DNA of 64,000 bases from Bacillota bacterium (GCA_009711825.1 VEMY01000010.1:1-64000); one strand, 5' to 3'; positions 21,051 to 39,770 are shown, counted from the stretch's first letter. The notes: a model not told the origin generated them from the sequence alone. Numbers and translations: made by a program.

Positions 21051-21755
21051 TCAAAGGTTTTTTTTCTTTAGTAGACATAATTTAGTCACTTCTTCTTTGG
21101 TCAACTGCCTGTATCCGCCTTTTGGGACTCCCTGCAAATCTAAAAAACCAAACCGGATTCGTTCCAGCTTTATAACTTTATAGCCTAGGGCTGCAAACAT
21201 CCTGCGGACCTGACGCTTTTTCCCTTCGTGAATAATCAATTCCACTGTTTTCGGACCCGCTATTTTAACCTTGGCAGGCGCGGTCATTCCATCCTCCAAC
21301 CGAACTCCGGCAGTCAATCTAGCCAAAACACCGGCCTCTGGTTCTCTGTCCAGCACCGCCCTGTAGGTTTTTTTTACGCCAAACCGGGGATGCAATAGTG
21401 TGTTGGTTAGTTCACCGTCATTAGTCAATAACAACAAACCTTCTGTATCCAGATCTAATCTGCCCACAGGATAAACCCGAGGACGGGTAGGCACCAAGCT
21501 CACAACAGTTGGACGTCCGTGGGTATCCCGGACTGTTGTCACATAACCCTTGGGTTTGTTGAGCAAATAGTAGACATGGGTATTCCGGTGAACAGGTCTT
21601 CCATCCACTTTGATTTCAGCATCAGCTGCAACCTTCGTTCCCAACTTGGTGATAACCTGGCCGTTCACTTCCACGCGCCCGGCCCGAATGATTTCTTCAC
21701 ATTTCCTTCGGGATGCAATACCGGCTGCCGCCAAGACTTTTTGTAACCGCTCCAT
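21051..21755 (-). CDS. Pseudouridine synthase, RsuA/RluB family
   Basis: A 234-residue enzyme isomerising a uridine in rRNA. An S4 RNA-binding domain (1-60) precedes the catalytic domain with the family motif GRLDLDTEGLLLLTNDGEL containing the catalytic Asp, and the C-terminal motif KRQVRRMFAALGY. It is most like RluB, acting on 23S rRNA, but RsuA-type specificity cannot be excluded. The ATG at 21755 follows GGAGGTG; the earlier in-frame start at 21782 lacks a site. Confidence 0.92.
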   Translation of the reverse strand: MERLQKVLAAAGIASRRKCEEIIRAGRVEVNGQVITKLGTKVAADAEIKVDGRPVHRNTHVYYLLNKPKGYVTTVRDTHGRPTVVSLVPTRPRVYPVGRLDLDTEGLLLLTNDGELTNTLLHPRFGVKKTYRAVLDREPEAGVLARLTAGVRLEDGMTAPAKVKIAGPKTVELIIHEGKKRQVRRMFAALGYKVIKLERIRFGFLDLQGVPKGGYRQLTKEEVTKLCLLKKKNL

Positions 21756-21792
21756 AAATTCACCTCCCGTTTTATAAGCCATGAATCCAATG

Positions 21793-23676: not shown

Positions 23677-23677
23677 T

Positions 23678-25489
23678 TCAACCGCCGGTAACCGTGTCCT
23701 TACCAGAACGCCCGGGGTAGGCGCCCTCATCCCGGTTACCTAGCACGCCTTCGTGGAGGGCGGCGACAAAATCTCCCACCTGAACAGTTTCCCGCAGCGC
23801 TGTTTCAATGCCTGCAAGTAGTTCGCCGGCCATATCCTCGGCTTGCCGGGTCGGTTCAATTTTGGCCTGGCCCATAAACCGGAATGTTTCTCGCACGGAC
23901 TGGAGTGTATCAACTCTTGATGCCCCGGCAATCGGTCCCCCGGAATATGCTTCATCTGCCGATGCAATTGAGATGGCATCCACTCCCAATGAAGCGGCGA
24001 GGCCTGCGTGCAGACCGGTGCTCACCGAAGACTGGACCCGATCTTCATTTTGAGTCAAAAAGCCAATTGGCGCCCCTGGCCAAATCGGAGCATCAACAAT
24101 CTGCCGAAGGGCAATTAACTTCGCGGCATTAAAATCGATATAGTTATCTTCCATCGCTTTATTTATCATCACTTCCGGTGAATAGCAAAACAAAGGCTGC
24201 AAAATCGGTTTTGCGCCCAGTGCAAGGGCAAGATTAGCGACAATCAACATCCCGGCGAAGGCTTTATGGGCTGGCACTCCACATAGTTCTTCATTAGTAA
24301 CCACGTCAAAGGGCAGATTGTAGCGCGCGGCATACTTAATTGCAGCCACAGCGTCCACAGTCAGCCGAGACGGATCGGTGCCAGCGCCCAACGCGCCATA
24401 AACAATATTGATCTTTGTCAGATCAGCCCCGCACTCACCGGCCAGCACAACCGTCTCCGGTGTATTTAATCCCCTATGGGCGCGCACCTGCCAGAGACTG
24501 GATTCCTCCAAGGCAGAACGGATGCAACGGAGGTTTTCGGGAGTAATCACCGAGCCATCCTGCTGATGGGTGAGGTAGCCTTCCAAAAATCCTTCGGTTC
24601 TGGCGCCCCAGGACGGATCAAAATGCACCACCCCGTCAGCCCCCCATCCCTCAGCGATCTTGATATGGGCGATATCCATGAACGGGCAGCCGGTTCCATA
24701 TTGAACAAACACAGCAGGTTTTTTTCGGGTATGGCGAATATCCAGCGGTCGCATCCTGGCCCGGGTCCGCTCCACATACTGTTCCAGTGAATCCAGTTCT
24801 GCTTGTTCTAAACCTCTGGTTTGTGCATGCAAGCTTCCCTTGGTGTAGTAATCAGCAATCACGTCATCGCATAGTTTGGCATACTCTTTTCGCAATGACG
24901 CCGTATCCCTGCCCAGACCCTCCTGTTTTAGAATTTCCTCCCGAAGCTGAGCCCGCTCAACACCGGGACTGGAGCGTTTGGCGGACCACTCTATAATCTG
25001 GTTTGTTATGTTATCCAACATTGCCTTAATCGAGGCGTTATTAAAACTGTAATCATAGGTGCCAACCATGTCGATTTTTTTCTTTTCTGTGCCTTCCCGT
25101 GAGGGCTTAAACTCTCGCCCCTCCACAAAGGCAACCGCGGCTTCAACTGGCGTACCGGGGCCAAAACCGGCGTCAAACCCCAGTTCAGCCGCCAGTTCGG
25201 CACGGATCGCCATGCCGCCAACACCAAGCTTGACCTTTTCACGAACCCCGGCAGCATCGACAAGATCAACAAACCGGGCCAGTATTTCTTCGACTCCATA
25301 GCCCAAAGTCCTAGAGATCAGGACCACATCAGCTTTGTGCTCGATGATTCCATTGACAATTTCCTGGGGTGAATAGTCGGGAGGGAACAACCAAGTCTGA
25401 TGTCCGGCCTGTTCAAGGCCACGCCGGATCATCTTGAGCCCAATGTCGTGAACAGGATCCAAGGGTGCGAGCACAACTTTTTTTCCCAT
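23678..25489 (-). CDS. Fused cobalamin-dependent (glutamate-mutase-like) mutase
   Basis: A 603-residue protein. Residues 1-125 form a B12-binding Rossmann domain with the His-x-x-Gly of base-off cobalamin binding, but written D-P-V-H-D-I-G, i.e. DxxHxxG with one extra residue compared with the usual DxHxxG. It also has ISRTLGYG and GVGGM, as in the family. After a helical linker (126-240) comes a large alpha/beta domain (about 250-560) resembling the barrel subunit of glutamate-mutase-type enzymes (AHRGLNTPETVVLAGECGADLTK, SVSTGLHAGLAASLGVDA). I infer a carbon-skeleton or amino-group mutase with S- and E-like parts fused in one chain. The substrate is not known. Its ribosome site GGAGG lies in the tail of the 76-residue gene upstream. 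Confidence 0.68.
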   Translation of the reverse strand: MGKKVVLAPLDPVHDIGLKMIRRGLEQAGHQTWLFPPDYSPQEIVNGIIEHKADVVLISRTLGYGVEEILARFVDLVDAAGVREKVKLGVGGMAIRAELAAELGFDAGFGPGTPVEAAVAFVEGREFKPSREGTEKKKIDMVGTYDYSFNNASIKAMLDNITNQIIEWSAKRSSPGVERAQLREEILKQEGLGRDTASLRKEYAKLCDDVIADYYTKGSLHAQTRGLEQAELDSLEQYVERTRARMRPLDIRHTRKKPAVFVQYGTGCPFMDIAHIKIAEGWGADGVVHFDPSWGARTEGFLEGYLTHQQDGSVITPENLRCIRSALEESSLWQVRAHRGLNTPETVVLAGECGADLTKINIVYGALGAGTDPSRLTVDAVAAIKYAARYNLPFDVVTNEELCGVPAHKAFAGMLIVANLALALGAKPILQPLFCYSPEVMINKAMEDNYIDFNAAKLIALRQIVDAPIWPGAPIGFLTQNEDRVQSSVSTGLHAGLAASLGVDAISIASADEAYSGGPIAGASRVDTLQSVRETFRFMGQAKIEPTRQAEDMAGELLAGIETALRETVQVGDFVAALHEGVLGNRDEGAYPGRSGKDTVTGG

Positions 25490-25490
25490 T

Positions 25491-25721
25491 CTACTCAGCC
25501 TCCTTCAGCCAGCCATAATGATCTCCTGACCGGAAGATATATCCCCTGGCTCTAATACGGGCACCGGGTCCCCGATGTTGGCAAAAAACAATGTCAACAT
25601 CCTTCAACCCCATTTCACCCATCATTTTCCGGATGATATCCATACCTTCATCTTCATCGCGACAAATTACAAATGTCTCAATATCCAGCGCGTCCACAAT
25701 CCGTTCAAGATATTTATTCAC
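25491..25721 (-). CDS. Unknown 76-residue protein of the mutase operon
   Basis: A small acidic protein starting at a GTG at 25721 with GAGGAGGATG upstream. It is directly coupled to the mutase gene, which begins two bases after its stop. It has no signal peptide or membrane segment. The central DEDEGMDIIRKMMGEMGLKDVDIVFCQHRGPGARIRARGY may form a small alpha/beta fold. I do not recognise the family. Its fixed position before the mutase suggests a subunit or accessory protein, by analogy with the small subunits of aminomutases, but that is inference only. Confidence 0.6.
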   Translation of the reverse strand: MNKYLERIVDALDIETFVICRDEDEGMDIIRKMMGEMGLKDVDIVFCQHRGPGARIRARGYIFRSGDHYGWLKEAE

Positions 25722-25778
25722 TACTGCTTCATCCTCCTCTTACCTTGTCCCTAGTAGCATAAATAGAAAGCAAGATAT

Positions 25779-26498
25779 TTATTCCTGCCCTGCCCGGGAC
25801 CAATATTTATGGACATCAGCAATCAAACTTTCTATATGATTTACCATCGCCAACTCAGCTGCCTCCGGGTTTCGCGCTTTCACGGCCTCAAAGATTTTCC
25901 GGTGATCGGCAAATACACGGCTATGCACCTCAGTACGGATAAAGCCCAGGACAGGGGACAATTGGCCGTCCTGACGAATCAGGTTAAGGGCAGCCCGCAG
26001 CACCTTGTTGCCGGCTGCTTCAGCCAACAATTCATGAAATGCCACATCCCCTTCCGCCACTGCATCGGTAGATGCAGTTTCATAGGTTTCAATCAGTGAG
26101 GACATTTGCAGAATCTGTTGATCACTGCTGTTGGCGGCTGCCAAGCGGGCAATTTCCCGTTCAATCGCTCGTCTGGCCACCAGGATTTCAATCAAATCAT
26201 CTTTGTTCCGGGAGCGAACCTGGCGGGCCAGCGCAATCGAATGACGCCGACGCATTTCCTCCCCCAACAGCTGCTTGATAAAGTTTATTCCTTGCTCAGT
26301 CAGTAACCGGCCACGATATCCCTGCCTGTCTGTATATCCTTTTATGTCCAGTTGCCGCAACAACCGGCCAACTGTTGCCTCGCTAACCTGGTAGCCGGCT
26401 GCTTCGATTACCTGGCTGGCCTTCCCGGATCCAATAGGCTCATCCGGATTGTTAAGCATGTATTGCATCAGGCAAATCACTTCCGCACGTTCTTCCAT
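25779..26498 (-). CDS. FCD-domain transcriptional regulator
   Basis: About 239 residues. The C-terminal half (about 90-235) is an all-helical FCD domain as in FadR/GntR regulators (LVARRAIEREIARLAA, GDVAFHELLAEAAGNKVL, DHRKIFEAVKARNPEAAELAMVNHIESL). These domains bind an organic acid ligand through a metal. The N-terminus is a winged helix that differs from ordinary GntR (ASQVIEAAGYQVSEATVGRLLRQLDIKGYTDRQGYRGRLLT). The ATG at 26498 follows AAAGGACTGG. It precedes the mutase operon on the same strand and diverges from a 144-residue gene, so it probably controls one or both. Confidence 0.8.
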   Translation of the reverse strand: MEERAEVICLMQYMLNNPDEPIGSGKASQVIEAAGYQVSEATVGRLLRQLDIKGYTDRQGYRGRLLTEQGINFIKQLLGEEMRRRHSIALARQVRSRNKDDLIEILVARRAIEREIARLAAANSSDQQILQMSSLIETYETASTDAVAEGDVAFHELLAEAAGNKVLRAALNLIRQDGQLSPVLGFIRTEVHSRVFADHRKIFEAVKARNPEAAELAMVNHIESLIADVHKYWSRAGQE

Positions 26499-26594
26499 TT
26501 TCGCACCAGTCCTTTCTCGCTTGCGAACTGAAAATATTATACCATAATTATCTAGCACAGCGGTCCCAGCACACCCTGCCAGGTTCTGAATATG

Positions 26595-27125: not shown

Positions 27126-28535
27126 TTACATCAGGAATACCGCAACAACAGCGGCAACAGCCAATCCGCAGATTACGGGAATGAAGTTTTTCCGCGCCAG
27201 ATCCATCGGGCTTACGCCAGCGATGCCGGCAGTTGCCACCAAACCAAATGCCCAGGCAGTCAGGGTTCCGCCACCGGCCCAGACAGCACCCATTTGGCCA
27301 ATCGCTGCCACAGCCTCGACACTGGCGTTTGCTGCCGGCGCCAAGGACTGGGCGAGACTTGCAGTCAGTGGCAGACCGGAGAAACCGGAGCCGTCTAGCC
27401 CGGTGATAATCCCGACAAACAGGTTGCCAAAGGACATAGCCAATCGATTGACCGGCAACGAGTTCGCAACCGCCGAACCCAAGTCAAAGAGGAGTTGCGG
27501 CGCGCCTTCGCCCAAAATAGCCACGGCATCGCCACCGCCAAGGAAGAAGAAGCCGGCGATTGGAATAACAGGTGCGAATATCTTGATTGCAAAGAGCATG
27601 CCTTCGCGCAAATGAACGACCACAGATTCCAGGGCTTTGTCCCCATCATTGGCAAAGCTCATGATAATCAAGAGCGCCGCGGCGGCTCCACCCAACAACG
27701 CGGTTGCGTCTCCACCCATAATTGGTGCAAGGGCAGTAGCTTCAAATGAAGCGTAAATCATGGTGCCAATTATCAGCATAAATGTTACCGGCACAATTAT
27801 CGCAAAAGCAATATTCTTGTTGGTCTTCTCAATCGGAGCATCATCGGCTGTCGCCGCAACCAAACCACTCTCTACATTCAGCCCCTGCTGGGTCTTGATT
27901 TCCTTGCGCATCATCAAATATGCGATGACACTGGCGACAAGACCAACCACCAACGACAAAATTGCCACTTCGTTGAGCATAGCGCCCGGTTCCAATCCGA
28001 TGGTCCGTTCACTGAGCCCTGGCGCTCCCTGAATGATTAAGTCGCCAGACAATGCCATACCATGACCAAGGATGTTTACCGACATGGCCGCAGCCATTGC
28101 CGGCAGTCCCGCTTTGATCGCTACAGGAAGGAGCATTACGCCAACCAGCGCGGTGGCCGGGGTGGGCCAGAAGAACAGTGCGCAGATGTACATCACACCA
28201 CCCAGAGCGAAGAAAGCAACATGGGGATTGACCATCAGGCGACGGGCAGGAGCCACCATCAATGTATCGGCGCCCAGCTTTGCCATCGACTTGAGCATTG
28301 CTACCATCAGTGCAATAACCAGCATGATGTCAAACAAGTCGCTGCCGGCTACCAATAGTGCACGGAACATTGCCTGCACGGCAGGAATAATACTGCCCTC
28401 GTTATACACCAGACCGATGACAAAGATTCCTACTATACAGGGTAAAACAACATCTCGTTTCAATACCATTGCCAAAACCACAGTCAGAACAACTAGCAAA
28501 TAAATCCAATGAGACAGGGTTAAAGTGACTTCCAT
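27126..28535 (-). CDS. Cassette A: multi-TM organic anion transporter
   Basis: A 469-residue integral membrane protein with about 12 hydrophobic segments. It begins with a strand-helix start like ion-transporter superfamily carriers (GntP, DcuC, CitMHS type). Two similar halves each have a loop with conserved small residues: FFWPTPATALVGV...SVNILGHGMALSGDLIIQGAPGL in the first and NLFVGIITGLDGSGFSGLPLTASLAQSL in the second. It probably moves a carboxylate or amino acid with Na+ or H+. It is closely similar to the 471-residue transporter of cassette B. Last gene of cassette A, ending at a terminator. The substrate is unknown. Confidence 0.78.
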   Translation of the reverse strand: MEVTLTLSHWIYLLVVLTVVLAMVLKRDVVLPCIVGIFVIGLVYNEGSIIPAVQAMFRALLVAGSDLFDIMLVIALMVAMLKSMAKLGADTLMVAPARRLMVNPHVAFFALGGVMYICALFFWPTPATALVGVMLLPVAIKAGLPAMAAAMSVNILGHGMALSGDLIIQGAPGLSERTIGLEPGAMLNEVAILSLVVGLVASVIAYLMMRKEIKTQQGLNVESGLVAATADDAPIEKTNKNIAFAIIVPVTFMLIIGTMIYASFEATALAPIMGGDATALLGGAAAALLIIMSFANDGDKALESVVVHLREGMLFAIKIFAPVIPIAGFFFLGGGDAVAILGEGAPQLLFDLGSAVANSLPVNRLAMSFGNLFVGIITGLDGSGFSGLPLTASLAQSLAPAANASVEAVAAIGQMGAVWAGGGTLTAWAFGLVATAGIAGVSPMDLARKNFIPVICGLAVAAVVAVFLM

Positions 28536-28583
28536 TAATTTTGGCCCCCAATATTTTATGGTTGATTTTCCCCGGGAAGGGAA

Positions 28584-29870
28584 TTACTTGGCCAATTGCT
28601 GGTTAAAAACGCCTGTCAAGTTAACGGTATCGACCCGGGCTGCCACCTCCTCTTTATCGGTGGTATACATACCCAGCTCTTTCAAGTGGTTGAACAATAC
28701 CGAGCCGGAGAAAGTGAACTTCTGTCCCATACCCTCAGGGGTTTCCATCCGTTCCCTGACATAGGCAATTGCCTCGCCAATCATCAGAGTCCGGGGCAGT
28801 TCCAGCAAGTCAAGGTTTAGGGCCTGACGAACGGCATTGTGCCCCGCAAGTGTACCGGTGATAATTGCCTCGGTATGACCGACCAACAGGCCAGCTTTCT
28901 CGCCACCGCAGAACAAGTTATCGACACCCTGTACCTGCAGCTTATCATCCCGAGGGGCCAGCGCCAGATAACGCATAGAGTTGCCAAGGCCGCCAGAATA
29001 GGGGTCTTCGTAACGGGCTTCTTCAAAGCCAGGAATCTGTCTCAGGGTTTCTAAGGGAAAATATGGCGCCATTAATTTTGCATGGCCGGTATCCAGCAAT
29101 ATTACATTGGCGGCAAACTCAGGCAGCGCATACTGCTGACACGCTTTTGATGAAAGTGCCTCTTCACCCTTTTGCAGTGCCTCGGGAATCGGCACAACGG
29201 CAACACCGGTCTCATCCAATTGCTTTACAATCTCCGGCGCCAGGGACTCTTTGAGAAGCTTGCAGGAGCCGCTCATTGCACCAATGGAGCCATCGGCTTT
29301 TTGGCCCATTTTTTCCTCTACACCTGCCTTGGCGGCAATACTTACGCGGCCGCCAAAGGTCGGACAGCGCAGCACGCACATGGCGCAACCATTGCCGTAT
29401 TTGCCACAGTTGGCCATTCCGCCTGCAGAACCGGTGGCTTCAACGACAACATCTGCATCCACGCTGCTGCCGTCGCTGAGTTTGACGGCGACAATCCTGG
29501 AGCCGTCTTTGATAACGTCTTTAGCTGTAGTTTCGAGGCGAATCTCAATCCTTCGGGCCAGCAACTCTATTTTTACAGCCGGTTCAATTTTCCCGATGTC
29601 ATACAGAGAAGCATGCTTGTGACCAGGAAACTCGATATCGCGGTGTCGGGAGACTGAGTCGGCGATTTGGAACAATTCACCGCCACCTAAAGCAATTGCT
29701 TCTTCTGTTGCAGTCCAACGGCCGTTGTTGCGCATGATTCCACCAACTAGACCTGTTCCTAAAAGCATATCTGTCCGTTCAACTAAGGTTACATCGGCGC
29801 CGGCCTTGGCGGCAGCAAGTGCTGCCGCCGTTCCGGACCAACCGCCACCAACAACCAGAACTTTCACCAT
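28584..29870 (-). CDS. Cassette A: FAD-dependent oxidoreductase with Cys cluster
   Basis: A 428-residue flavoprotein. The dinucleotide-binding GGGWSGTAAALAAAKAGA is at residues 8-25; the second FAD contact is VVEATGSAGG (142-151); a C-terminal FAD segment FCGGEKAGLLVGHTEAIITG is typical of the MnmG/TrmFO/GidA group. Unusually, four cysteines lie in C-x6-C-x2-C-x3-C at 155, 162, 165 and 169, conserved in the cassette B copy. They could hold an Fe-S cluster or be redox-active. The start follows AAGGAGG. It probably oxidises or reduces the cassette substrate; the reaction is unknown. Confidence 0.8.
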   Translation of the reverse strand: MVKVLVVGGGWSGTAAALAAAKAGADVTLVERTDMLLGTGLVGGIMRNNGRWTATEEAIALGGGELFQIADSVSRHRDIEFPGHKHASLYDIGKIEPAVKIELLARRIEIRLETTAKDVIKDGSRIVAVKLSDGSSVDADVVVEATGSAGGMANCGKYGNGCAMCVLRCPTFGGRVSIAAKAGVEEKMGQKADGSIGAMSGSCKLLKESLAPEIVKQLDETGVAVVPIPEALQKGEEALSSKACQQYALPEFAANVILLDTGHAKLMAPYFPLETLRQIPGFEEARYEDPYSGGLGNSMRYLALAPRDDKLQVQGVDNLFCGGEKAGLLVGHTEAIITGTLAGHNAVRQALNLDLLELPRTLMIGEAIAYVRERMETPEGMGQKFTFSGSVLFNHLKELGMYTTDKEEVAARVDTVNLTGVFNQQLAK

Positions 29871-29900
29871 TGAGTTATGCCTCCTTGTTGTTGAATAATC

Positions 29901-31343
29901 TTATTCGTGCGCATATTTGCAAACGATTTGAATCAGCCGCACCAGGGCTCTTACAGCCAGACGGGCCTTCTCTTCAATCAGCTGACCATTGTCATCAGTT
30001 GTGCCGAGACCAGGGGAAATGTAGATATTGGCATCATAGGCAACGGTGGGAATTACGCCCATCTGAGACAAGCCAGTTTGGAGCATATGGGAACCAGCAT
30101 ACATGTCTTCGATGGAGAAAATGGGGATGCCGGCGCCATTTGCCCATGTTCCTTCATAGTTTACTTCCACAGCTGTGGAGTTGTAGCTCTTGCTGATGAT
30201 AATACCTTTGAGCAATTCGGGGTCAAGTGCTGAAAATTCTTCTTTGACAATCTCGTAAAGCTCATCAACCGGCTGCTTCAGCACTTCAGGCTTATCTCTA
30301 AGAACCCGCAGAGCGGCAATTTGGCCGAGAAGAGCTTCTTTGCCCGGATCCTGGGTTACATAAGCAGCTTTCCCGTAGGAAGCAGTGGTGCCCCAGCGAT
30401 CGCCATGCATACCGAGAGCGCGACGGATTGGAACCATATACTCTTCTTTACCAATGACCAGACCGCTGGTCATCGAACCAGTCGCTTTGTCCATACTGTA
30501 GACGAAGACATCAGCGCCGGTCTTGCGGATATCGGTGCCGACAAACGGCAAGCCCCAGGCATTGTCAATTACATAAGGCACATCATAAGAATGGGCCACT
30601 TCAGCTAGGCCTTTCAGCAAACGGGGCACACCTTCACTATCCTTGTCGGCATAGCCGTAGCCAGGAGTTTCATAGCCAAGGGATGTGATTCCAGTTAGAT
30701 AATCGGCATGGCGTTCTGCTGTTTTAGCGATTTTCGCCAGCGTCTTGTCCACATCCACTTTGCTCAAAAGCGGCACCGGCCAATATTTGATGCCATGCAC
30801 TGGATACTCTGCGCCCACCATCGGCACAATCACTGCATCGGTATTGTTTTGACGCTTGCCGTAGAAACCCAGCTCCCCAGGAGTGCTGCCTCTGTCAGCG
30901 AACACGTCTTTGAACCGAGGCGGGAACGGACGACCATAAGCACCATGATGATGAAGATGCTTTTCGTAAGGCGCCAAATAACGGGCGCGGTAATTGTCTC
31001 CCCGTCCAAGATTGGGGGGAGTAAACAAAGCATCAAAGCTCACCCACAGTCCAGCTTCGCAGGTGTTAACAGGCGCGGCATCGTATTCATCGCCATAGAC
31101 GCTCTTGACCAGTTCACGAATTTCATCTACCAAGGTAGCCAGCGGCGTAACTTCTTTGGCACCTTTTTCAGCGAACTCGAGTATGTCGTCGCGCAAAGGC
31201 GCCGGACATCCGGATATAGCACCAGTAAGACCAAATTTGCCACGCCACTCCGCAGGGATACCAATCTCATCAGCAGCCTGTTTAGCTTCCTGATAAATGG
31301 CAGCCGTATTGGCTTGTAACTTTTTGTACATTTTGAACTTCAC
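29901..31343 (-). CDS. Cassette A: fold-type I PLP-dependent enzyme
   Basis: About 480 residues with a fold-type I aminotransferase-like core. The Asp that binds the pyridine nitrogen is in VIDNAWGLPF (about residue 260). The Schiff-base lysine is in YSMDKATGS (about 286), an S-x-D-K context like SelA-type and some lyase enzymes. TGAISGCPAPLRDDI and HGDRWGTTASYGKAAYVTQDPGKEAL are near-identical in cassette B. The long Gly/Pro/His-rich stretch around 110-165 is unusual. I start at the GTG at 31343, eight bases after AAGGAG. Candidate reactions are elimination, C-C or C-S lysis or transamination. Confidence 0.8.
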   Translation of the reverse strand: MKFKMYKKLQANTAAIYQEAKQAADEIGIPAEWRGKFGLTGAISGCPAPLRDDILEFAEKGAKEVTPLATLVDEIRELVKSVYGDEYDAAPVNTCEAGLWVSFDALFTPPNLGRGDNYRARYLAPYEKHLHHHGAYGRPFPPRFKDVFADRGSTPGELGFYGKRQNNTDAVIVPMVGAEYPVHGIKYWPVPLLSKVDVDKTLAKIAKTAERHADYLTGITSLGYETPGYGYADKDSEGVPRLLKGLAEVAHSYDVPYVIDNAWGLPFVGTDIRKTGADVFVYSMDKATGSMTSGLVIGKEEYMVPIRRALGMHGDRWGTTASYGKAAYVTQDPGKEALLGQIAALRVLRDKPEVLKQPVDELYEIVKEEFSALDPELLKGIIISKSYNSTAVEVNYEGTWANGAGIPIFSIEDMYAGSHMLQTGLSQMGVIPTVAYDANIYISPGLGTTDDNGQLIEEKARLAVRALVRLIQIVCKYAHE

Positions 31344-31401
31344 AACAAACACTCCTTAAAATTTTATATTTTGAGATTGAACTTATCGGGTCAATATGTA
31401 G

Positions 31402-31833
31402 CTACGTAGGTGGCTTAACGAATTTCAATTGTTGACCCAACTCCAAACCACGTTGTTTTCCACAAATGCGCTGCCCATGGAGAACAATATTGAGGTGATT
31501 GGGCATGTGAGTTTCATCAAACCCCACAATCGTTCCAATCACTTCACCGTCAACCTTCAGTTGATCACCGGCAACTAAAACACCGCTGTTGGTAAACTCC
31601 ACAAATCCTAGATACGCAATCGGGTTTACAATATCGCCCGGTTTTGCATGTTGATCAGTTACAATCAACTCATGAACCTGGTAGCGACTAACAGCTCGGG
31701 AAGGCTGGCCTATCAACTTTAAGTTGCGATTCTCATACTGACCAGTCAGCACAACCACCAAATCAGCCGTTACGTTAACTTTTGCAAAATAAGGATCTGA
31801 CTTGAACATTCGCTGCTTATACGGATCCGTCAC
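31402..31833 (-). CDS. Cassette A: unknown small beta-rich protein
   Basis: A 143-residue protein starting at GTG 31833 with GAGGAGGTG five bases upstream. Conserved blocks shared with the cassette B protein are SRAV...VHELIVTD, GDIVNPIAYLGF, and GFDETHMPNHLNIV. It has no transmembrane or signal sequence. I do not recognise a family. It is the first gene of the cassette in both copies, so it may bind the substrate or assist the PLP enzyme. A 6-bp inverted repeat (CTCATC...GATGAG, 31846-31860) overlaps the ribosome site and could affect translation. Confidence 0.72.
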   Translation of the reverse strand: MTDPYKQRMFKSDPYFAKVNVTADLVVVLTGQYENRNLKLIGQPSRAVSRYQVHELIVTDQHAKPGDIVNPIAYLGFVEFTNSGVLVAGDQLKVDGEVIGTIVGFDETHMPNHLNIVLHGQRICGKQRGLELGQQLKFVKPPT

Positions 31834-31906
31834 ATCTTCACCTCCTCATCATTGATGAGCAGCTACAGTAAGTTTCGCCATTAGTTCCGGAATTCCTGCT
31901 TAAACA

Positions 31907-31933
31907 TAAAAAAAAAACTGAGAAATTTCTCAG
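31907..31933 (-). terminator. Terminator before cassette A
   Basis: Minus-strand palindrome CTGAGAAATTTCTCAG followed by a run of T's. It overlaps the stop of the 38-residue gene and separates the small-gene transcript from cassette A. Confidence 0.8.
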
Positions 31934-32046
31934 TTAAACAATGGAATTCCTCCGACCCAGCTTGCCAGCAAAAATAATAAAGTAATCCAAATGGTCCCCA
32001 AAACCAAAACAACCAAAGTTTCTTTAAGTTCTTTCCGGTTTCCCAT
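31930..32046 (-). CDS. 38-residue single-TM peptide
   Basis: This short open frame starts at the ATG at 32046 (or at 32052 with two more residues), 12 bases after the stop of the 77-residue gene, with an AGGTG about eight bases upstream. The peptide has a short charged start (MGNRKELKE) and then one hydrophobic segment of about 20 residues ending in ASWVGG. Small single-TM peptides of this length often accompany membrane transporters as accessory subunits. It could serve the transporters next door. It is read from the small-gene transcript and is not known to be expressed. Confidence 0.55.
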   Translation of the reverse strand: MGNRKELKETLVVLVLGTIWITLLFLLASWVGGIPLFN

Positions 32047-32058
32047 TGTCATCAACAC

Positions 32059-32292
32059 CTAATGCCCGAGGACAAACAGATTGTATTCCAGGTCTTCCCA
32101 GGAAAAGCGAAGTCCCGGGCAATCGGTGTTATGTGGCTCGACATTGTAGAAGGGTATATTGTACTTTTCCATTAGAGCAAATATCCGGGCGGCCAAAACA
32201 TCCATATCATTGACCCAAATATTGATTGCCTGATCGCTGCGTGCATAGTCATGACAGTGGGTCCCGTGGACAATAATTTTTTTCACATTCAT
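32059..32292 (-). CDS. Unknown 77-residue protein
   Basis: A small soluble protein starting after GGGGGGATG. It contains HGTHCHDYARSD near the N-terminus, EPHNTDCPG in the second half and a final LEYNLFVLGH. Clustered His and Cys suggest metal binding or a thiol active site. I do not recognise the family. It is followed directly by the 38-residue peptide gene and preceded by a terminator, so the two form a short transcript between the cassettes. Confidence 0.6.
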   Translation of the reverse strand: MNVKKIIVHGTHCHDYARSDQAINIWVNDMDVLAARIFALMEKYNIPFYNVEPHNTDCPGLRFSWEDLEYNLFVLGH

Positions 32293-32341
32293 CCCCCCGT
32301 GTTTCAGATTATGGCGCTTAGGGAATAAATGTGCACACCAA

Positions 32342-32365
32342 AATAAAGACCCCTATCGGGTCTTT
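32342..32365 (-). terminator. Terminator after YqhV-like gene
   Basis: Stem AAAGACCC / GGGTCTTT with a CTAT loop, overlapping the stop codon at 32364. On the minus strand it is followed by ATTTTGG, a modest T-tract. Confidence 0.65.
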
Positions 32366-32621
32366 ATCTGGTGGCAAGCATAATCAACGTTATTCCCATA
32401 AGCAGCAAACCTAATTTGCGTAGATCAATCTGTCCTGCCAGGCCAGCAACGCCAATGGCGCTTACGAACAGAAACACAAATGGTCCGACACTGCCGATAA
32501 TACCGTTGATTTTAACGGCTGACTGCAAGTCCTTATAATATAACATCAGCAAGCCGCCGCTAAGACTGACAACGCCGTAGAGCATTCTGATTGCGGCCAT
32601 TGTAATGAGATTGATGTTCAT
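32364..32621 (-). CDS. YqhV-family (DUF2619) membrane protein
   Basis: An 85-residue protein with three hydrophobic segments. The pattern RMLYGVVSLSGGLLMLYYKDLQSAVKINGIIGSVGPFVFL matches the DUF2619/YqhV family found near sporulation and lipid genes in Firmicutes. Its function is unknown. The ATG at 32621 follows GGGGGAATGA. It lies between cassettes A and B and is probably transcribed on its own or from cassette B read-through. Confidence 0.75.
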   Translation of the reverse strand: MNINLITMAAIRMLYGVVSLSGGLLMLYYKDLQSAVKINGIIGSVGPFVFLFVSAIGVAGLAGQIDLRKLGLLLMGITLIMLATR

Positions 32622-32676
32622 CGTTCATTCCCCCTTATATTGGGCCATTATAACCTTTTCCAGGGGATTTGTCTTG

Positions 32677-34092
32677 TCACATCATAAACAATATCGCTAC
32701 CAATGTCGACACAACCAGCCCTGCTACGACCGGGATAAAGTTTCTCCTGGCGAGCTCAATTGGATTAATCCCAGCGACACCGGCAGTGGCCACCAAACCA
32801 AATGACCAGGCCGCCAAAGTACCGCCGCCAATCCAGACAGCGCCCATTTGCCCAACGGCCGCCAAGGCTTCCACATTAACTCCAGCCGGTCCGCCCAGGG
32901 CCTGGGCCAATCCACCCACCAAAGGCAGGCCGCTAAACCCGGAGCCATCGAGACCGGTCAGGATGCCAATCAGCAGGTTGCCAAAGGCCAGCGAAAAAGC
33001 ATTCAAAGGTAGACTGTCGGCTATCATGTTTCCAATATCGAACAAGTATTGGGGAGCACCTTCCCCCAAAATATCGGCAACCGAGCCGGAACCCATTAAA
33101 AAGAATCCGGCGATAGGAATTACAGGCGCGAAGATCTTGGCAGCAAACAGCAGACCCTCCCGCAAAAAGCCGACTATTTCCTCCAGGGCTTTATTGCCAT
33201 AGCGTCCAAAACCGGCAATCAACATCAATAGAGTTGCCGTTCCACCCAAAAGCGCCTCCGACAAACCGCCACGTATCCTAACAACCGCGTCGGCTGATGA
33301 AGACGGGTCTGGTACGAATACCATTACCACGATAATCAACAGCAGCACTGCGGGCACAAACACGGCGAAGAATTTTGATACCCCGGTAATTGGAACCTTT
33401 TTTGCGTTGTCTTCATCGATGGCCTGGGTGTTAAAATCTTGGGTAGGCTTCTTGCCATAATCCCGCAACGTGAGGAGGTAGGCAACAGCGCCTGCCACCA
33501 AACCGGTGATCAACGACAAAATCGCAATTTCAGAGAGAAGCGCTTCTGTCGGTATCCCTGCCGCCCGGGCAGTTATCCCTGGTGCACCCTGGATTACAAG
33601 GTCACCGGATAACGCCATGCCGTGTCCGAAGATATTTACCGACATGGCAGCAGCAATCGGAGGCAGGCCTGCCCGCACTGCAATTGGCAGCAGAATCACT
33701 GCCACCAGAGCAGTGGCTGGCGTTGGCCAAAAGAACAGTGCTGCAGCATACATTGCTGCCCCCAGCACCCAGTAGGCCACCTTGGGGTTTTTCATTAGCG
33801 GTCTGACAGGTGAAACCATCAGCACATCAGCGCCCATGGTCTGAAGCGCTTTCAGCATCGCCACCATTAAGGCGATTATCAACATGATGTTGAAGAGCGA
33901 TGTCCCTGCTGTGAGCAAACCTTGGAACACAGTCTGGACCGCGGCAATCAGCGACCCATGATGTGACCAGCCCAGGAGCAGTATCCCCAAAATACAGGGC
34001 ACGACGACATCGCGTTTGAGAATCATGGCCAAGAGAACCACAACCAACGTGATTATATAGATCCAATGACCAATAGTCAGAGACCCTTCCAT
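32677..34092 (-). CDS. Cassette B: multi-TM organic anion transporter
   Basis: A 471-residue membrane carrier, paralogue of the cassette A transporter along its whole length. Shared segments include GHWIYIIT...VVVPCILGI, ALFFWPTPATALVAVILLP, SVNIFGHGMALSGDLVIQGAPG, and ILTGLDGSGFSGLPLVGGLAQAL. Differences cluster in the central loop (about 215-260), which in this copy is rich in Asp/Lys. It starts after AGGAGGGAA. Last gene of cassette B. Transport of an organic acid or amino acid coupled to cations is inferred. Confidence 0.78.
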   Translation of the reverse strand: MEGSLTIGHWIYIITLVVVLLAMILKRDVVVPCILGILLLGWSHHGSLIAAVQTVFQGLLTAGTSLFNIMLIIALMVAMLKALQTMGADVLMVSPVRPLMKNPKVAYWVLGAAMYAAALFFWPTPATALVAVILLPIAVRAGLPPIAAAMSVNIFGHGMALSGDLVIQGAPGITARAAGIPTEALLSEIAILSLITGLVAGAVAYLLTLRDYGKKPTQDFNTQAIDEDNAKKVPITGVSKFFAVFVPAVLLLIIVVMVFVPDPSSSADAVVRIRGGLSEALLGGTATLLMLIAGFGRYGNKALEEIVGFLREGLLFAAKIFAPVIPIAGFFLMGSGSVADILGEGAPQYLFDIGNMIADSLPLNAFSLAFGNLLIGILTGLDGSGFSGLPLVGGLAQALGGPAGVNVEALAAVGQMGAVWIGGGTLAAWSFGLVATAGVAGINPIELARRNFIPVVAGLVVSTLVAILFMM

Positions 34093-34110
34093 GTTATTCC
34101 CTCCTGCCTG

Positions 34111-35388
34111 TTAGGGCTTCTGCGCAAAAATATCCTCCACGCCAGCCTGGCGAACCCGGCGGGCAACTTCCGCGCGGTCTGTGATATACATATCCTTCTC
34201 CTGAAGGTGTTTAAACATTACAGCGCCGGAGAAAGTATATTTTTTTGTCATGCCTTCTTCGGTCTGCATTTGTTCGTTTACCCAGGCAATTGCTTCACCA
34301 ATCGCCAGGTCTCTGGGCACTTCAACCAGGTCTTTACCCATTACCTGACGCACGGCATTATGCCCGGCAATTGTTCCGGTGATTATCGCCTCAGTATGAC
34401 CAACCAACAGGCCGGCCTTTTCCCCGCCACAAAACAGGTTAGCTACCCCCTCAACCTGCATTGTATTTTTGCGAGGCGAAAGAGCCAAGTAACGCATCGA
34501 ATTGCCAACGCCACCTGAGTACGGATCTTCAAAACGTGCGTCCTCAAACCCAGGAATTTTCCGCAGCACTTCCAAAGGATAAAATGGACTCATCAATTTA
34601 GCGTGGCCCGTATCCAAAAGGATGATATTCTCTGCAAACTCAGATAACGCATATTGTTGACAGGCCTTAATCCCCAGCGAGCCCTCTTTACGCAATTCGG
34701 GGGGGATTGGTATTATTGCCACACCGGTGGAGTCCAAGCGGTCTACGATATCGGGAGCTAGGGAATCTTTATGCAGCTTGCAGGAACCGCTCATGGCGCC
34801 AATGCTGCCGTCCCCTTTCTTGCCCATCTTTTCTTTGACTCCGGCCTTGGCCGAAATCGATACCCGGCTGCCAAAGGTTGGACAGCGGTAGACGCACATT
34901 ACGCAGCCATTGCCGTATTTGGTGCAATTGGCCATGCCGCCGGCAGATCCCGTGGCTTCAATGTATATATCCGCTTCCATCTTACTGCCATCGTCTAATT
35001 GCACATGTTTAATTGTATCTCCGCTCATTTCCACATCTTTACCGCGGTTTACAAAATGCATCTTGACGCCGTACTCTTCCAAAAGACGACGGATCGCCGG
35101 CTCAATTTTTGAGACATCATAAAGCGACGCATGTTTGTGACCGGGGAATTCTATCTCCCGATGCCTAGATACCTGATCAGAGAGTTTGAACAAATCGCCG
35201 CCACCCATTGCAATTGACTCTTCGGTAGCAGTCCAACGACCGTTGTTGCGCATTATTCCGCCAACAAGGCCGGTTCCCAATAACATGTCGGTACGCTCAG
35301 CTAATTCAACTTCCGCGCCCAACTTAGCGGCAGCGATGGCAGCGGCTGTACCAGCCCAGCCACCACCGATTATGCCAACCTTAACCAT
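34111..35388 (-). CDS. Cassette B: FAD-dependent oxidoreductase with Cys cluster
   Basis: A 425-residue paralogue of the cassette A flavoprotein. It has the same GGGWAGTAAAIAAAKLGA dinucleotide fold, GTGLVGGIMRNNGRWTATEE segment, Cys cluster (CTKYGNGCVMCVYRC) and C-terminal FCGGEKAGLLVGHTEAI. I start at the second ATG (35388), seven bases after AGGAGG. That the cysteine spacing survives in both copies while surface loops diverge argues for a functional role such as a cluster or a redox pair. It is translated 12 bases after the PLP enzyme. Confidence 0.8.
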   Translation of the reverse strand: MVKVGIIGGGWAGTAAAIAAAKLGAEVELAERTDMLLGTGLVGGIMRNNGRWTATEESIAMGGGDLFKLSDQVSRHREIEFPGHKHASLYDVSKIEPAIRRLLEEYGVKMHFVNRGKDVEMSGDTIKHVQLDDGSKMEADIYIEATGSAGGMANCTKYGNGCVMCVYRCPTFGSRVSISAKAGVKEKMGKKGDGSIGAMSGSCKLHKDSLAPDIVDRLDSTGVAIIPIPPELRKEGSLGIKACQQYALSEFAENIILLDTGHAKLMSPFYPLEVLRKIPGFEDARFEDPYSGGVGNSMRYLALSPRKNTMQVEGVANLFCGGEKAGLLVGHTEAIITGTIAGHNAVRQVMGKDLVEVPRDLAIGEAIAWVNEQMQTEEGMTKKYTFSGAVMFKHLQEKDMYITDRAEVARRVRQAGVEDIFAQKP

Positions 35389-35400
35389 CATCCAACCTCC

Positions 35401-36858
35401 TTAGATTATGCCCGCATGCCGGGCGACAATTTCCATCAACCTGACCATGCCCCTAACGGCATAGCGGGCCCGTTCTTCTATCAACTGGCCATCGTCATCG
35501 GTGGTGCCCAGCCCCGGGGAAATATAGATATTGGCGTCATAGGCGATTGTTGGAATAATCCCCATTTGCGCCATACCGGTTTGCAGCAGGTGGGATCCGC
35601 CATACATATCCTCAATTGAGAATATTGGCATACCAAGCCCTTCCTTCCAAGTCTTTTCGTAATTAATCTCGACAGCGGTGGAATTGTAAGTCTTGGAAAT
35701 AATCAGACCCTTACCGATACGGGAATCAATTTGATCAAACTCCTCTTTAACGACTTTGTACAGGTCGTCAACAGGCTTGGTCAGAACTTCCGGACGCTCC
35801 TTGAGAGCCCGCAGTGCGGCAATTTGACCCAACAGTGCCTCTTTACCAGGATCCTGGGTCACATATGCTGCCTTACCGTAAGAGGCTGTGGTGCCCCACC
35901 GATCGCCATGCATACCAAGAGCGCGACGAATGGGAACCATATATTCTTCTTTGCCGATGATCAAGCCGCTGGTTGCTGATCCTGTTGCCTTATCCATGCT
36001 GTAAATGATTACATGGGAACCGGTTTTACGAATATCTGTGCCAACAAACGGCAACCCCCAGGCATTATCTGTGATATATGGCACATCAAACTCTTCCGCA
36101 ATCTGAGCAAGGTACTTCTGCAACAGTGGTATTCCTTCCTCATCATGCTCGCCATAACCATAGCCGGGCGTTTCATAGCCAAGGGATGTAAAGCCGGTGA
36201 GACAATGCGCATGCCGTTCCGCGACCATGGCAATTTTCTCAGCGGAAGCTTCAGCATCAACTTCTGTCAATAGTGGCACCGGCCAGTATTTTATACCGTG
36301 AACATCATATCTAGCACCTTCCAGCGGCACGATAATTGTGTCGGTATTGTTCTGGCGCTTGCCATAAAAACCAAGTTCGCCCGGTGTTGACCCCCGATCA
36401 GCAAGAATGTCTTTAAACCGACCCGGGAACGGACGGCCATATGAACCCTGGTGATGCAAATGTTTTTCATACGGGGCGATATAGCGAGCGCGGTAGTTGT
36501 CACCTCGCCCCTGCATTGGCGGCGTGAACAGAGTATCAAATGAAACCCAAATTCCCGCCTCACACGTATTTACCGGGCAGGCATCGTATTCGTCACCATA
36601 AACGGACTTCACCAAGTCTCTGATGTCGTCAACGAGCTTGGCCAGGGGGATAACTTCGGTGACTCCTTCTTCGATAAAATTTCGGATATCGTTGCGCAAA
36701 GGCGCCGGGCATCCGGAGATGGCGCCAGTCAAGCCAAACTTGCCCCTTAATTCCGATGGAACACCGATTTCATCTGCCGCCTTGCGCGCCTCTTCATAAA
36801 TTTTGGGGATGCTTTGCTGTAAATGTTTGTACATTTGAAACTTAAACTTATCCGCCAT
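35401..36858 (-). CDS. Cassette B: fold-type I PLP-dependent enzyme
   Basis: A 485-residue paralogue of the cassette A PLP enzyme. The TDNAWGLPF Asp and the YSMDKATGS lysine (about residue 290) are kept, as are TGAISGCPAPLRND, RGDNYRARYIAPYEKHLHHQGSYGRPFP and HGDRWGTTASYGKAAYVTQDPGKEAL. Near-complete conservation of the active-site segments suggests the same chemistry on the same or a very similar substrate. Start is the ATG at 36858 behind GAGGAGG. Second gene of cassette B. Confidence 0.8.
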   Translation of the reverse strand: MADKFKFQMYKHLQQSIPKIYEEARKAADEIGVPSELRGKFGLTGAISGCPAPLRNDIRNFIEEGVTEVIPLAKLVDDIRDLVKSVYGDEYDACPVNTCEAGIWVSFDTLFTPPMQGRGDNYRARYIAPYEKHLHHQGSYGRPFPGRFKDILADRGSTPGELGFYGKRQNNTDTIIVPLEGARYDVHGIKYWPVPLLTEVDAEASAEKIAMVAERHAHCLTGFTSLGYETPGYGYGEHDEEGIPLLQKYLAQIAEEFDVPYITDNAWGLPFVGTDIRKTGSHVIIYSMDKATGSATSGLIIGKEEYMVPIRRALGMHGDRWGTTASYGKAAYVTQDPGKEALLGQIAALRALKERPEVLTKPVDDLYKVVKEEFDQIDSRIGKGLIISKTYNSTAVEINYEKTWKEGLGMPIFSIEDMYGGSHLLQTGMAQMGIIPTIAYDANIYISPGLGTTDDDGQLIEERARYAVRGMVRLMEIVARHAGII

Positions 36859-36924
36859 TAACTTGGTAGCCTCCTCAGGAATAATTTTTCAAAGCCTACA
36901 GGTAGTATGCGTAACTCGAATTGC

Positions 36925-37353
36925 CTAATATTCACCCTGCTGAAAAACAACATCTGCTCCCAGCTCTAGTCCCAGTTCTTCGCCACTGATTCGCTCTCCA
37001 GAGACAATAATATTCAAGTGATTGGGCATATGCGTCTCATCGAAGCCGGATAACATTCCCACCTCTTTACCTGCAACCTTCAGGCGATCGCCAGTCACCA
37101 GAATCCCCGGCGCCGTAATCGCAAAAAAACCAAGATAAGCAATTGGATCAACCTTGTCTCCAGGCTGCGCTTGCTGGTCGGTAATAATTAATTCATGAAC
37201 TTCTCCAAGATTAACCGCCCTGGATTTTGGTTTAATTAACTGCAGCCCTCGTTGCGGATACTTTCCGCGCAGCACCACAACCAATTCGCCTTTCACATCT
37301 GTTTTCTCAGCATATGGATTCGCCTTAAACATTCCGCTTGCATAGGGATCCAT
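36925..37353 (-). CDS. Cassette B: unknown small beta-rich protein
   Basis: A 142-residue paralogue of the first protein of cassette A: VVVLRGKYPQRGLQLI, SRAV...VHELIITD, DPIAYLGF and GFDETHMPNHLNII are shared. I start at the ATG at 37353 with GGAGGTG upstream; an upstream in-frame start at 37398 lies in the terminator of spmB. First gene of cassette B. Only 29 bases separate it from that terminator's T-tract, leaving little space for a separate promoter. Confidence 0.72.
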   Translation of the reverse strand: MDPYASGMFKANPYAEKTDVKGELVVVLRGKYPQRGLQLIKPKSRAVNLGEVHELIITDQQAQPGDKVDPIAYLGFFAITAPGILVTGDRLKVAGKEVGMLSGFDETHMPNHLNIIVSGERISGEELGLELGADVVFQQGEY

Positions 37354-37462: not shown

Positions 37463-37993
37463 TTATGCGAACATCAATTTACAAATGATTACGGCAGTTA
37501 TAAATCCTGCTAAATCTGATAACAAGCCCACAGTCAGGGCATACCTGGCCCTGCGAATACCTACCGAGCCAAAATAAACTGTTAAAATGTAAAAAGTTGT
37601 GTCGGTGCTACCCTGCATGGTGGAGGCGATCAGGCCCTGAAGCGAGTCGGGGCCGAATCTCTGCATTAACTCCGCTGTCATTCCCAGAGCGCCGCTGCCA
37701 GAAATCGGCCGCATTATTGCCAAGGGCAGCACATCTGAGGGGATACCAACGGTTTCGGTTGCAGGCCTTATTATGCCCACCAGAAGGTCGAAGGCCCCTG
37801 ATTCCCGGAATATTGCCAGAGCTACCAGCATCGCGACCAAAATCGGAATTAACTGCACAGCGATGGTGAACCCCTCTTTGCCACCTTCCACAAAAGTATC
37901 GAAGACATTTATTCTCCGCCAGGCGGCAAAGACCAAGACGATAAAAATAAACACCGGAATCGCCCATTGAGAGACCGCATTCAGGATCGCCAT
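37463..37993 (-). CDS. spmB: Spore maturation protein B
   Basis: A 176-residue membrane protein of the SpmB/nucleoside-transporter-gate family (GESG-like FRESGAFDLLVG, ISGSGALGMTAE, MQGSTDTTFYIL). With SpmA it is needed for full dehydration of the spore core in Bacillus. It has five or six hydrophobic segments. It follows spmA with a one-base overlap and ends the dacB-spmA-spmB operon. Start after AGGAGGAAA. Confidence 0.93.
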   Translation of the reverse strand: MAILNAVSQWAIPVFIFIVLVFAAWRRINVFDTFVEGGKEGFTIAVQLIPILVAMLVALAIFRESGAFDLLVGIIRPATETVGIPSDVLPLAIMRPISGSGALGMTAELMQRFGPDSLQGLIASTMQGSTDTTFYILTVYFGSVGIRRARYALTVGLLSDLAGFITAVIICKLMFA

Positions 37994-38580
37994 TACTGTT
38001 TCCTCCTGCTGATGGTACGGAAAATCTTATCAAAGGTAATTGCCACGAGCGTTGAACAGCCCGTAGCGATAATTGTCGTCACCACAATCCGTGTGGGTTC
38101 CACTGAGCCGGCGGCGGCCCGAAGCGCAATCACTGTCGTTGGAATTAAGGTTATGCTGGAGGTATTGAGCGCCAAAAAAGTGCACATTGCCGGCGACGCT
38201 GTATCTTTGTCCTGATTAAGCTCTTGGAGATGCTTCATCGCCTGAAGTCCCATTGGCGTAGCAGCGCTTCCCATTCCAAGAATATCCGCACTCATCGTCA
38301 TTAAGATTGAGCTCATTGCGGGATGTTCAGGCGGAACATCGGGAAACAAAAAGCGGGCAAAGGGCTTCATAATCCGGACCATTATCCTTAGGAGTCCCGA
38401 GCGCTCAATCACCTTCATAATCCCCAGCCAAAATGTCATTACGGCAATCAAGCCGATGGCCAGACTGACAGCTTTGTCGGCGGTATCGAGAATTACAGGC
38501 GTGATATCGCCTATATTGCCACTGATGGCGGCAACCAGAATTCCCGACAAGATAAAAAACAGCCAAAAGCGGTTAATCAT
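37993..38580 (-). CDS. spmA: Spore maturation protein A
   Basis: A 195-residue SpmA protein, membrane-embedded, with the gate-type pattern MTMSADILGMGSAATPMGLQAMKHL and FLALNTSSITLIPTTVIALR. It acts with SpmB in spore core dehydration. Overlaps the dacB stop by eight bases and spmB by one, so the three are co-translated. Confidence 0.93.
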   Translation of the reverse strand: MINRFWLFFILSGILVAAISGNIGDITPVILDTADKAVSLAIGLIAVMTFWLGIMKVIERSGLLRIMVRIMKPFARFLFPDVPPEHPAMSSILMTMSADILGMGSAATPMGLQAMKHLQELNQDKDTASPAMCTFLALNTSSITLIPTTVIALRAAAGSVEPTRIVVTTIIATGCSTLVAITFDKIFRTISRRKQ

Positions 38581-39715
38581 TTTGCCACCATCCCCGCAAC
38601 CAATTGGCTATACGGGCAAATAAGCCACTTCTGGCGTCAACATCTGCCGCCACCTGTAAATCTGCGCTCAACTCCCATTGGTTATCGATCAAAATATGTG
38701 CAGTCCCCACAACCTCGCCGACTGTTAGCGGGGCTTCTAGTCTCGCCGGCAGGTCTGGAATTACTTCATAATTAATCATTTCATTGGCGTAAACTGGAAA
38801 CGACACCTGCCGCGCCAGCTGCACCGGCACGCGGCGCTCAACGCCGCCCCTCACAGGCAGTACTGTCACAGTTTTGCCTGCGTCAATCACAGTCTTCATA
38901 TCAACTTTGTCAAATCCATAATTAAAAAGTTTCATTACGTCGGAATAAAGCGCCTGGGTGTCCATTACCACCGCAATTAATTCCATACCATCCTCTGCGG
39001 CAGCAGCCACCAGACACGCCCCGGCGGCTTCAGTCCAGCCGGTCTTTAAACCCAACGCCCGAGGATCCCGCTCCAACAATTTGTTGCTGTTATACATTAC
39101 CCGCGGCCGGCCAGTGGTCAGTTCGCGACTGACATAAGTTTCGGTGGCGCATATTTCCCGCAACACCGGATGTCTTAAGACCTCCCGGGCAAGAATCGCC
39201 AGATCATGGGCGCAGGAATAATGTTCCTCTGCGTCCAGTCCGTGGGGATTGGCGAAACTAGTGTCCTTCATTCCCAGTTCCCACGCTTTTCTGTTCATCA
39301 GCGCAGCGAACTGTCGCTCATCGCCCCCCACATGCCTGGCAATCGCCATAGCCGCATCATTTCCTGAACGCAGAATCAGTCCGTATAGTAGATCCTGCAT
39401 TGTCAGCTGTTCACCTGGCTCAAGATAGATTGAGCATCCCTCGATGCCCGTACTTTCGGGTTCAATCGTCACAATTTCATCCAATTCACTAAGCTCAAGC
39501 GCAACTATGGCTGTCATCAATTTGGTGGTGCTGGCTATCAAACTTTGTTCTCGGGAGTTTTTTTCGTATAGAACCCGTCCACTGGAGGCTTCCAACAAGA
39601 TAAAAGATTCAGAAACAATCGTATCAACACCGTCATCTGACTGCTCTGCCACTGCCACACCAGCGATTAATATTAATAGCAGGCTGATTAACAAGAGCTT
39701 GCCAATGGTTTTCAA
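38573..39715 (-). CDS. dacB: D-alanyl-D-alanine carboxypeptidase, sporulation type (DacB)
   Basis: A 380-residue serine peptidase S11 with a signal peptide (1-23), STTK at 62-65, SGND as the second motif and KTGWTEA as the third, and a C-terminal amphipathic anchor (ARIANWLRGWW). Its place at the head of spmA-spmB matches B. subtilis dacB, which loosens spore cortex crosslinks in the mother cell. The TTG at 39715 is preferred (GGGGGTGG upstream). CATACA just before the gene resembles a sigma-E -10, but I see no matching -35. Confidence 0.88.
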   Translation of the reverse strand: MKTIGKLLLISLLLILIAGVAVAEQSDDGVDTIVSESFILLEASSGRVLYEKNSREQSLIASTTKLMTAIVALELSELDEIVTIEPESTGIEGCSIYLEPGEQLTMQDLLYGLILRSGNDAAMAIARHVGGDERQFAALMNRKAWELGMKDTSFANPHGLDAEEHYSCAHDLAILAREVLRHPVLREICATETYVSRELTTGRPRVMYNSNKLLERDPRALGLKTGWTEAAGACLVAAAAEDGMELIAVVMDTQALYSDVMKLFNYGFDKVDMKTVIDAGKTVTVLPVRGGVERRVPVQLARQVSFPVYANEMINYEVIPDLPARLEAPLTVGEVVGTAHILIDNQWELSADLQVAADVDARSGLFARIANWLRGWWQND

Positions 39716-39770
39716 TCGTCCCACCCCCATCTGTATGTATATTCAAGGCGGGGAGTTGTTTATGAGGGCA

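Follow-up and report, generated by a model that had tools for sequence, protein, structure and literature searches.

A putative AdoCbl mutase with altered PLP contacts and duplicated DUF6917-PLP cassettes in a Bacillota bacterium: a candidate amino-acid catabolic module

B12-dependent ornithine and lysine aminomutases are textbook examples of PLP-assisted radical chemistry. Their domains are arranged in different ways: in OraE of D-ornithine 4,5-aminomutase (OraE/OraS) the order is barrel, dimerisation domain, Rossmann domain, and in lysine 5,6-aminomutase the domains are split over two subunits, KamD and KamE. The PLP contacts of known structures are Lys144, Arg184, Ser189, Ser238, Tyr263 and Arg268 (PMC3958899).

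A gene cluster in a 64,000-nucleotide stretch of a Bacillota bacterium genome (GCA_009711825.1, VEMY01000010.1:1-64000; "the window" below) recalls both systems and differs from both. Its B12 protein has a Rossmann domain followed by, and fused to, the barrel, with the dimerisation domain apparently in a separate ORF. The cluster resembles lysine 5,6-aminomutase in its best structural match, its KamE-type Rossmann domain and its KamB-like reactivase, but its remaining genes are not those of the lysine pathway; with the ornithine pathway it shares Rossmann and barrel domains, probably a dimerisation domain, and an adjacent dehydrogenase and PLP enzyme. OraE and KamD/KamE keep the PLP lysine and pocket, whereas the B12 protein appears to have neither.

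The locus and its duplicated cassettes

The original prediction described two four-gene cassettes on the minus strand, and the ORFs lie where it placed them, in the same order in both (27126-31833, copy a; 32677-37353, copy b): DUF6917, a fold-type-I PLP enzyme, a GidA-like FAD enzyme and a transporter-like protein. Identity between the copies is 56 % for DUF6917, 76 % for the PLP enzyme, 69 % for the FAD enzyme and 59 % for the transporter. The view that active sites are nearly identical and that both copies look functional also held: long identical blocks surround the PLP lysine, the FAD motifs and the Cys cluster, and every family-invariant residue is present in both copies, each a row of the family alignments.

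The small protein is the only cassette product with a specific family name. DUF6917a (31402-31833, 143 aa; PF21891, E 4.4e-45) and DUF6917b (36925-37353, 142 aa; E 2.4e-45) give 153 and 153.9 bits in the two copies, above the Pfam gathering score of 27 bits. An AlphaFold2 model of DUF6917a (pLDDT 94.8) is all-beta; searches of the PDB returned no sequence match and no fold match at E<=0.001, an initially suspected resemblance to the PTS GutA IIA protein gained no support from Pfam or the fold search, and a literature search on DUF6917 found no paper.

In PLPa (29901-31352) Lys289 of the SMDKA motif is the family-invariant lysine; the active-site motif of PLPb (35401-36858) is YSMDKATGSATSGLIIG, and its profile matches, which are weak, are DgaE/SelA-like. 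The likeness to DgaE (D-glucosaminate-6-phosphate ammonia lyase) and SelA is local, at the PLP lysine (SxxKAxxxxTSGxIxG), but only about 60 residues align significantly, the score is 36.3 bits against a family cut-off of 385, and DUF6917 is a near-obligate neighbour. FADa (28584-29870; PF01134, E 1.6e-31) and FADb (34111-35391; E 3.2e-32) share the GIDA Pfam domain (E ~1e-31) with the MnmG/TrmFO flavoproteins, but are set apart by a family-specific Cys cluster (CX6CX2CX3C; C155, C162, C165, C169, C203, C244 and C321 invariant in copy-a numbering), by their place in this cluster and sometimes by a PyrK-like partner. Assignment as tRNA-modifying TrmFO or MnmG was rejected, the scores (39.7 against 262 bits and 33 against 525 bits) lying far under the equivalog cut-offs. 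For the membrane proteins TRa (27126-28535) and TRb (32677-34092), nothing credible was found in Pfam, NCBIfam or the PDB.

Directly downstream of the cassettes, and also on the minus strand, are a FadR/FCD-type regulator (25779-26558; HTH_12 plus FCD; PF07729, E 2e-24; PF08461, E 6.9e-11), a 76-aa ORF (25491-25721), the B12 protein (23678-25489) and a KamB-like P-loop protein (22702-23730). The two cassettes form the duplicated front of a larger cluster, found in anaerobic bacteria, with only one mutase gene, common to both. In Desulfosporosinus most of the unit is duplicated, not just the front end.

This is an old duplication with both copies conserved. In trees, copy a groups with Dethiobacter-class orthologues (support 98/95 for FAD, 96/98 for the transporter and 99/97 for PLP) and copy b branches outside that clade, so that duplication, or acquisition of copy b, predates their divergence; the position of copy b in all three trees rules out a recent tandem amplification. 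As read from the sequence, the spacer between the cassettes (31908-32365, minus strand) contains short ORFs and two terminator-like hairpins (~32365-32341 and ~31934-31908), which are compatible with separate transcription of the cassettes. Searches for a riboswitch as a substrate clue found no Rfam family in window positions 20000-42000, nor in the spacer; a T-box at another locus (L006) was discarded as a clue, since it sits outside the cluster.

The B12 protein and its PLP contacts

Over residues 1-125 the B12 protein matches the Rossmann domain of KamE, the beta subunit of lysine 5,6-aminomutase (E 6e-19; PF02310, E 6e-14), with an invariant D11-P-V-H14-D-x-G17 (DPVHDIG in the window), the B12 histidine ligand motif. 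The C-terminal part is a KamD-like barrel. Foldseek comparison of an AlphaFold2 model (pLDDT 88) with the PDB gave lysine 5,6-aminomutase alpha as best match (1xrs/8t0v; 1xrs_A, E 5.3e-16), ornithine 4,5-aminomutase as second (3kow, E 5e-11), and, after these, acyl-CoA mutases (methylmalonyl-CoA mutase among them); the model thus places the predicted TIM barrel with those of the class III AdoCbl aminomutases (KamDE, OraE). In sequence the barrel is remote from KamD (hhalign E 1.9e-4).

In most loci in which it is found, the 76-aa ORF immediately precedes the B12 gene, and it is likely to be the missing dimerisation domain of the aminomutase in free-standing form (OAM_dimer). Five of 22 family members match PF16554 (best E 4.9e-4), most members outscore all but 1 of 4400 shuffles against a KamE-domain profile, and hhalign places the ORF on one equivalent region of KamE and OraE, single scores being weak. 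The KamB-like protein gives 193.5 bits (E 4.4e-57) against NF052386, below its cut-off of 210 bits; homologues score 205.8 and, at locus L021, 236.5 bits. Because it adjoins the B12 gene, we infer that the B12 protein works as an AdoCbl radical enzyme and not as a methyl carrier. The same genome also carries genuine KamD/KamE/KamB and OraE loci, which makes the B12 protein a third, distinct member.

PLP ligands were mapped through the KamD and OraE sequences of the same genome onto 27 members of the new family, with ten KamD sequences and two MAFFT modes. The barrel contacts are conserved in the ten KamD sequences and in OraE. In the 27 members, the site of the Schiff-base lysine (Lys144 beta/Lys629; His+11) is an invariant leucine, Leu25; R184 is replaced by D291 (Asn in one), S189 by Ala or a gap, S238 by R339 and R268 by A/G369. 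Y236 corresponds to A337 in the B12 protein, and the sole PLP contact kept is Y263, as Y364. The two modes agree on these positions save Ser189, and the hhalign register is compatible, though with so remote an alignment to KamD (E ~2e-4) single-residue correspondences, that of S189 above all, can shift. These alignments lead us to conclude that the known mode of PLP binding has probably been lost. There is also an invariant K19 close to the B12 histidine, which could play an unforeseen role.

Distribution of the gene set

Scanning an alignment of the PLP enzyme against bacterial and archaeal genomes gave 54 loci. In nearly all loci compared, DUF6917 adjoins the PLP gene, and the further recurrent neighbours are the FAD gene, a FadR-type regulator (found in many homologous clusters), the ORF of about 80 aa, the B12 protein, a KamB-like gene and often RidA. 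The window (22702-26558 plus the cassettes) has all of these except RidA; in another lineage a single run holds RidA together with FadR, the small ORF and the B12 and KamB-like genes. The set is conserved across deep lineages, and the cassette, recurring in dozens of genomes, is not a chance arrangement.

Among 399 Bacillota genomes, where the numbers are presence counts and not phylogenetically independent, 39 are positive for DUF6917, 38 for the B12 protein and 40 for the PLP enzyme. All 39 DUF6917-positive genomes have the PLP enzyme; the B12 protein and DUF6917 occur together in 38, which are all of the B12-positive genomes, and the B12 protein is found in none of the 360 DUF6917-negative ones (Fisher p ~2e-52, a descriptive value that ignores the kinship of the genomes). 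Physical linkage (<=12 kb) was seen for DUF6917-PLP in 37/39 and for PLP-B12 in 36/39. The expected linkage of the four cassette families was borne out for DUF6917-PLP and for PLP-FAD (32/39), and more weakly for PLP-transporter (19/39). The FAD enzyme is present in 37/39 module-positive against 12/39 module-negative genomes, the transporter in 34/39 against 4/39. The FAD family extends beyond the module; the transporter, too, occurs elsewhere, and in module-positive genomes it is often unlinked.

Treating the four genes as the whole unit proved too narrow, since the B12 mutase, the putative dimerisation-domain ORF and the KamB-like reactivase also belong. Literature searches found no description of a matching pathway or system, in line with the original prediction, which knew of no described pathway with this set. 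The module is real, widespread and apparently undescribed.

Proposed function and alternatives

Our favored reading, which we consider somewhat probable, is that of an anaerobic module for amino-acid catabolism, with a PLP-free, domain-permuted AdoCbl mutase at its core, PLP chemistry in another enzyme paired with DUF6917, and the cassettes as front ends. The 76-aa ORF and the B12 protein would together form an AdoCbl radical mutase that does not bind PLP, kept active by the KamB-like reactivase and belonging to the lysine 5,6-/ornithine 4,5-aminomutases as a branch with permuted domains. PLP chemistry would have moved to the fold-type-I enzyme and DUF6917, probably as lyase- or thiolase-type bond cleavage. 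The membrane protein may import the substrate and the FadR-type protein sense it; the flavin/Cys-cluster enzyme would oxidise the amino acid or an acid derived from it (in the redox step an amine or 2-hydroxy acid is probably oxidised), and RidA, where present, could clear imine or enamine products. Both paralogous cassettes would feed one mutase, serving two related substrates or two conditions. Catabolic direction, step order, the class of the PLP reaction and the pairing of DUF6917 and the PLP enzyme are what we infer.

Uptake, PLP-dependent conversion and flavin redox chemistry of an amino acid or related acid had been suggested from the cassettes; this is supported in part, and it fits the companion genes: in other phyla the FAD gene is joined or replaced by genes for amino-acid oxidoreductases, and RidA is often inserted in the cluster. 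Ignavibacteria clusters have no GidA-like gene and carry instead a diaminopimelate dehydrogenase (TIGR01921; 297 and 313 bits, cut-off 181), which the window cluster lacks, and an LhgO-like oxidase; a Rhodospirillales locus has a ThiO-like oxidase, the GidA-like gene lying elsewhere in that genome. In some Dethiobacter-class genomes, genes for a pyruvate-type 2-oxoacid:ferredoxin oxidoreductase follow the cluster, which is compatible with a 2-oxo-acid product.

How far does the likeness to ornithine fermentation extend? An analogue of that pathway, in which a beta/gamma-amino acid is the product of the mutase, 2,4-diaminopentanoate dehydrogenase has its counterpart in the FAD enzyme (or a DAP-dehydrogenase-like one), and the OrtB/OrtA PLP thiolase in the PLP enzyme plus DUF6917, would account for the shared list of parts (mutase, dimerisation domain, reactivase, dehydrogenase, PLP enzyme with small partner) and for the DAP-dehydrogenase-like genes within the Ignavibacteria cluster. 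The same genome also has a true OraE cluster, in which proteins of 104 and 470 aa are presumably OrtA and OrtB. The PLP enzyme of the cassettes is of SelA/DgaE-like fold type I, however, and the apparent loss of PLP contacts speaks against a PLP-assisted 1,2-amino shift, so that this analogy is possible but doubtful. That loss also bears on whether the mutase is an ordinary aminomutase with an unusual, still PLP-dependent binding site: the ring-stacking Y263 is kept as Y364 and Lys19 lies near the B12 histidine, yet in 27/27 members other conserved residues stand in place of the Schiff-base lysine and of the residues that bind the phosphate and the ring, and we regard such a site as quite improbable. 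Very unlikely, in our estimate, is that the cassettes are PLP/FAD operons of amino-acid catabolism in their own right, with the B12 genes as unrelated neighbours. The DUF6917-PLP pair is not tied to the mutase, since it occurs without the B12 protein at loci L051, L028 and L034, outside the core set, and in Alphaproteobacteria it is found with other redox enzymes; the near-complete co-occurrence in Bacillota (38/39 against 0/360) and the close PLP-B12 spacing argue the other way.

The substrate can only be guessed at: a D-, diamino- or dicarboxylic amino acid is favored, for example one derived from peptidoglycan, but the hints from neighbouring genes disagree on a single compound. A specific identification as meso-diaminopimelate or another peptidoglycan-derived amino acid is suggested by the DAP dehydrogenase adjoining DUF6917 in Ignavibacteria, and in Fermentithermobacillaceae by the D-aminopeptidase DppA (by profile) beside DUF6917-PLP, by D-aminoacylase-like genes and by neighbours that, by eye, we take to be NagZ, AnmK and MurQ. 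Each of these hints comes from one or two lineages, while the Alphaproteobacterial DUF6917 neighbours (aspartate dehydrogenase, MmgE/PrpD, an M81 peptidase and a D-serine-dehydratase-type protein) point to aspartate-type compounds. The dacF-spmA-spmB genes were set aside as functional partners because in a Sporomusa region a different gene pair, one member of the FAD family and the other PyrK-like, lies between spmAB and rluB, pointing to a backbone site. We consider the peptidoglycan assignment unlikely.

Returning to the PLP-free mutase module, its more specific form is that the B12 protein belongs to a widespread third branch of the lysine/ornithine aminomutase family, which lost PLP, took on a new radical reaction and, with DUF6917 and the PLP enzyme, would carry out an undescribed fermentation of D-, diamino- or dicarboxylic amino acids in deep-branching anaerobic Bacillota and Ignavibacteria; we give this an even chance. 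A relative with the fold, B12 site and KamB-type reactivase but a replaced PLP pocket would show how aminomutase chemistry is re-used, and would make the contribution of PLP concretely testable. For DUF6917 the module supplies a partner and a role open to experiment, and isolates such as Sporomusa, Fervidicola and Desulfovirgula bring the module within reach of testing. With roughly one in ten of the Bacillota genomes sampled module-positive, an as yet unassigned route of amino-acid breakdown in anaerobic sediments and the subsurface is likely.

Chromosomal site of the module and the spacer between its cassettes

The module adjoins spmB-spmA-dacF (window 37463-39730) and is followed by rluB (window 21051-21782), and in several other genomes this same backbone site (spmB-spmA-dacF / rluB) carries either the module or a PyrK-like/FAD pair. 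Short ORFs lie on the minus strand between the two cassettes (window 32059-32621), one of them reading KKIIVHGTHCHDYARSDQAINIW...

Relatives of the module genes at other loci

Matches to the GidA-like FAD family number 16 in G019, a Bacillota sample genome that is 78% complete, far above every other genome. Away from the module, in two distant lineages, a NIF3-like protein that has no Pfam match (L126:5718-6803 and L127:4807-5913) is encoded near a GidA-like FAD gene. At locus L110 (genome G368), FadR and the B12 gene adjoin a divergent paralogue of the PLP enzyme (SLDKASASSICGM). Alphaproteobacterial DUF6917 genes (loci L144-L149), of which one genome has four copies, are found in the neighborhood of FAD amino-acid oxidases, BKACE, M81 peptidase, aspartate dehydrogenase, and MmgE/PrpD.

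Aminomutase-family enzymes in the same genome

Genuine KamD/KamE/KamB and OraE clusters are also present in the window's own genome (loci L107 and L108, contigs C1 and C3); since these occur besides the module, three aminomutase-family enzymes coexist in this organism.
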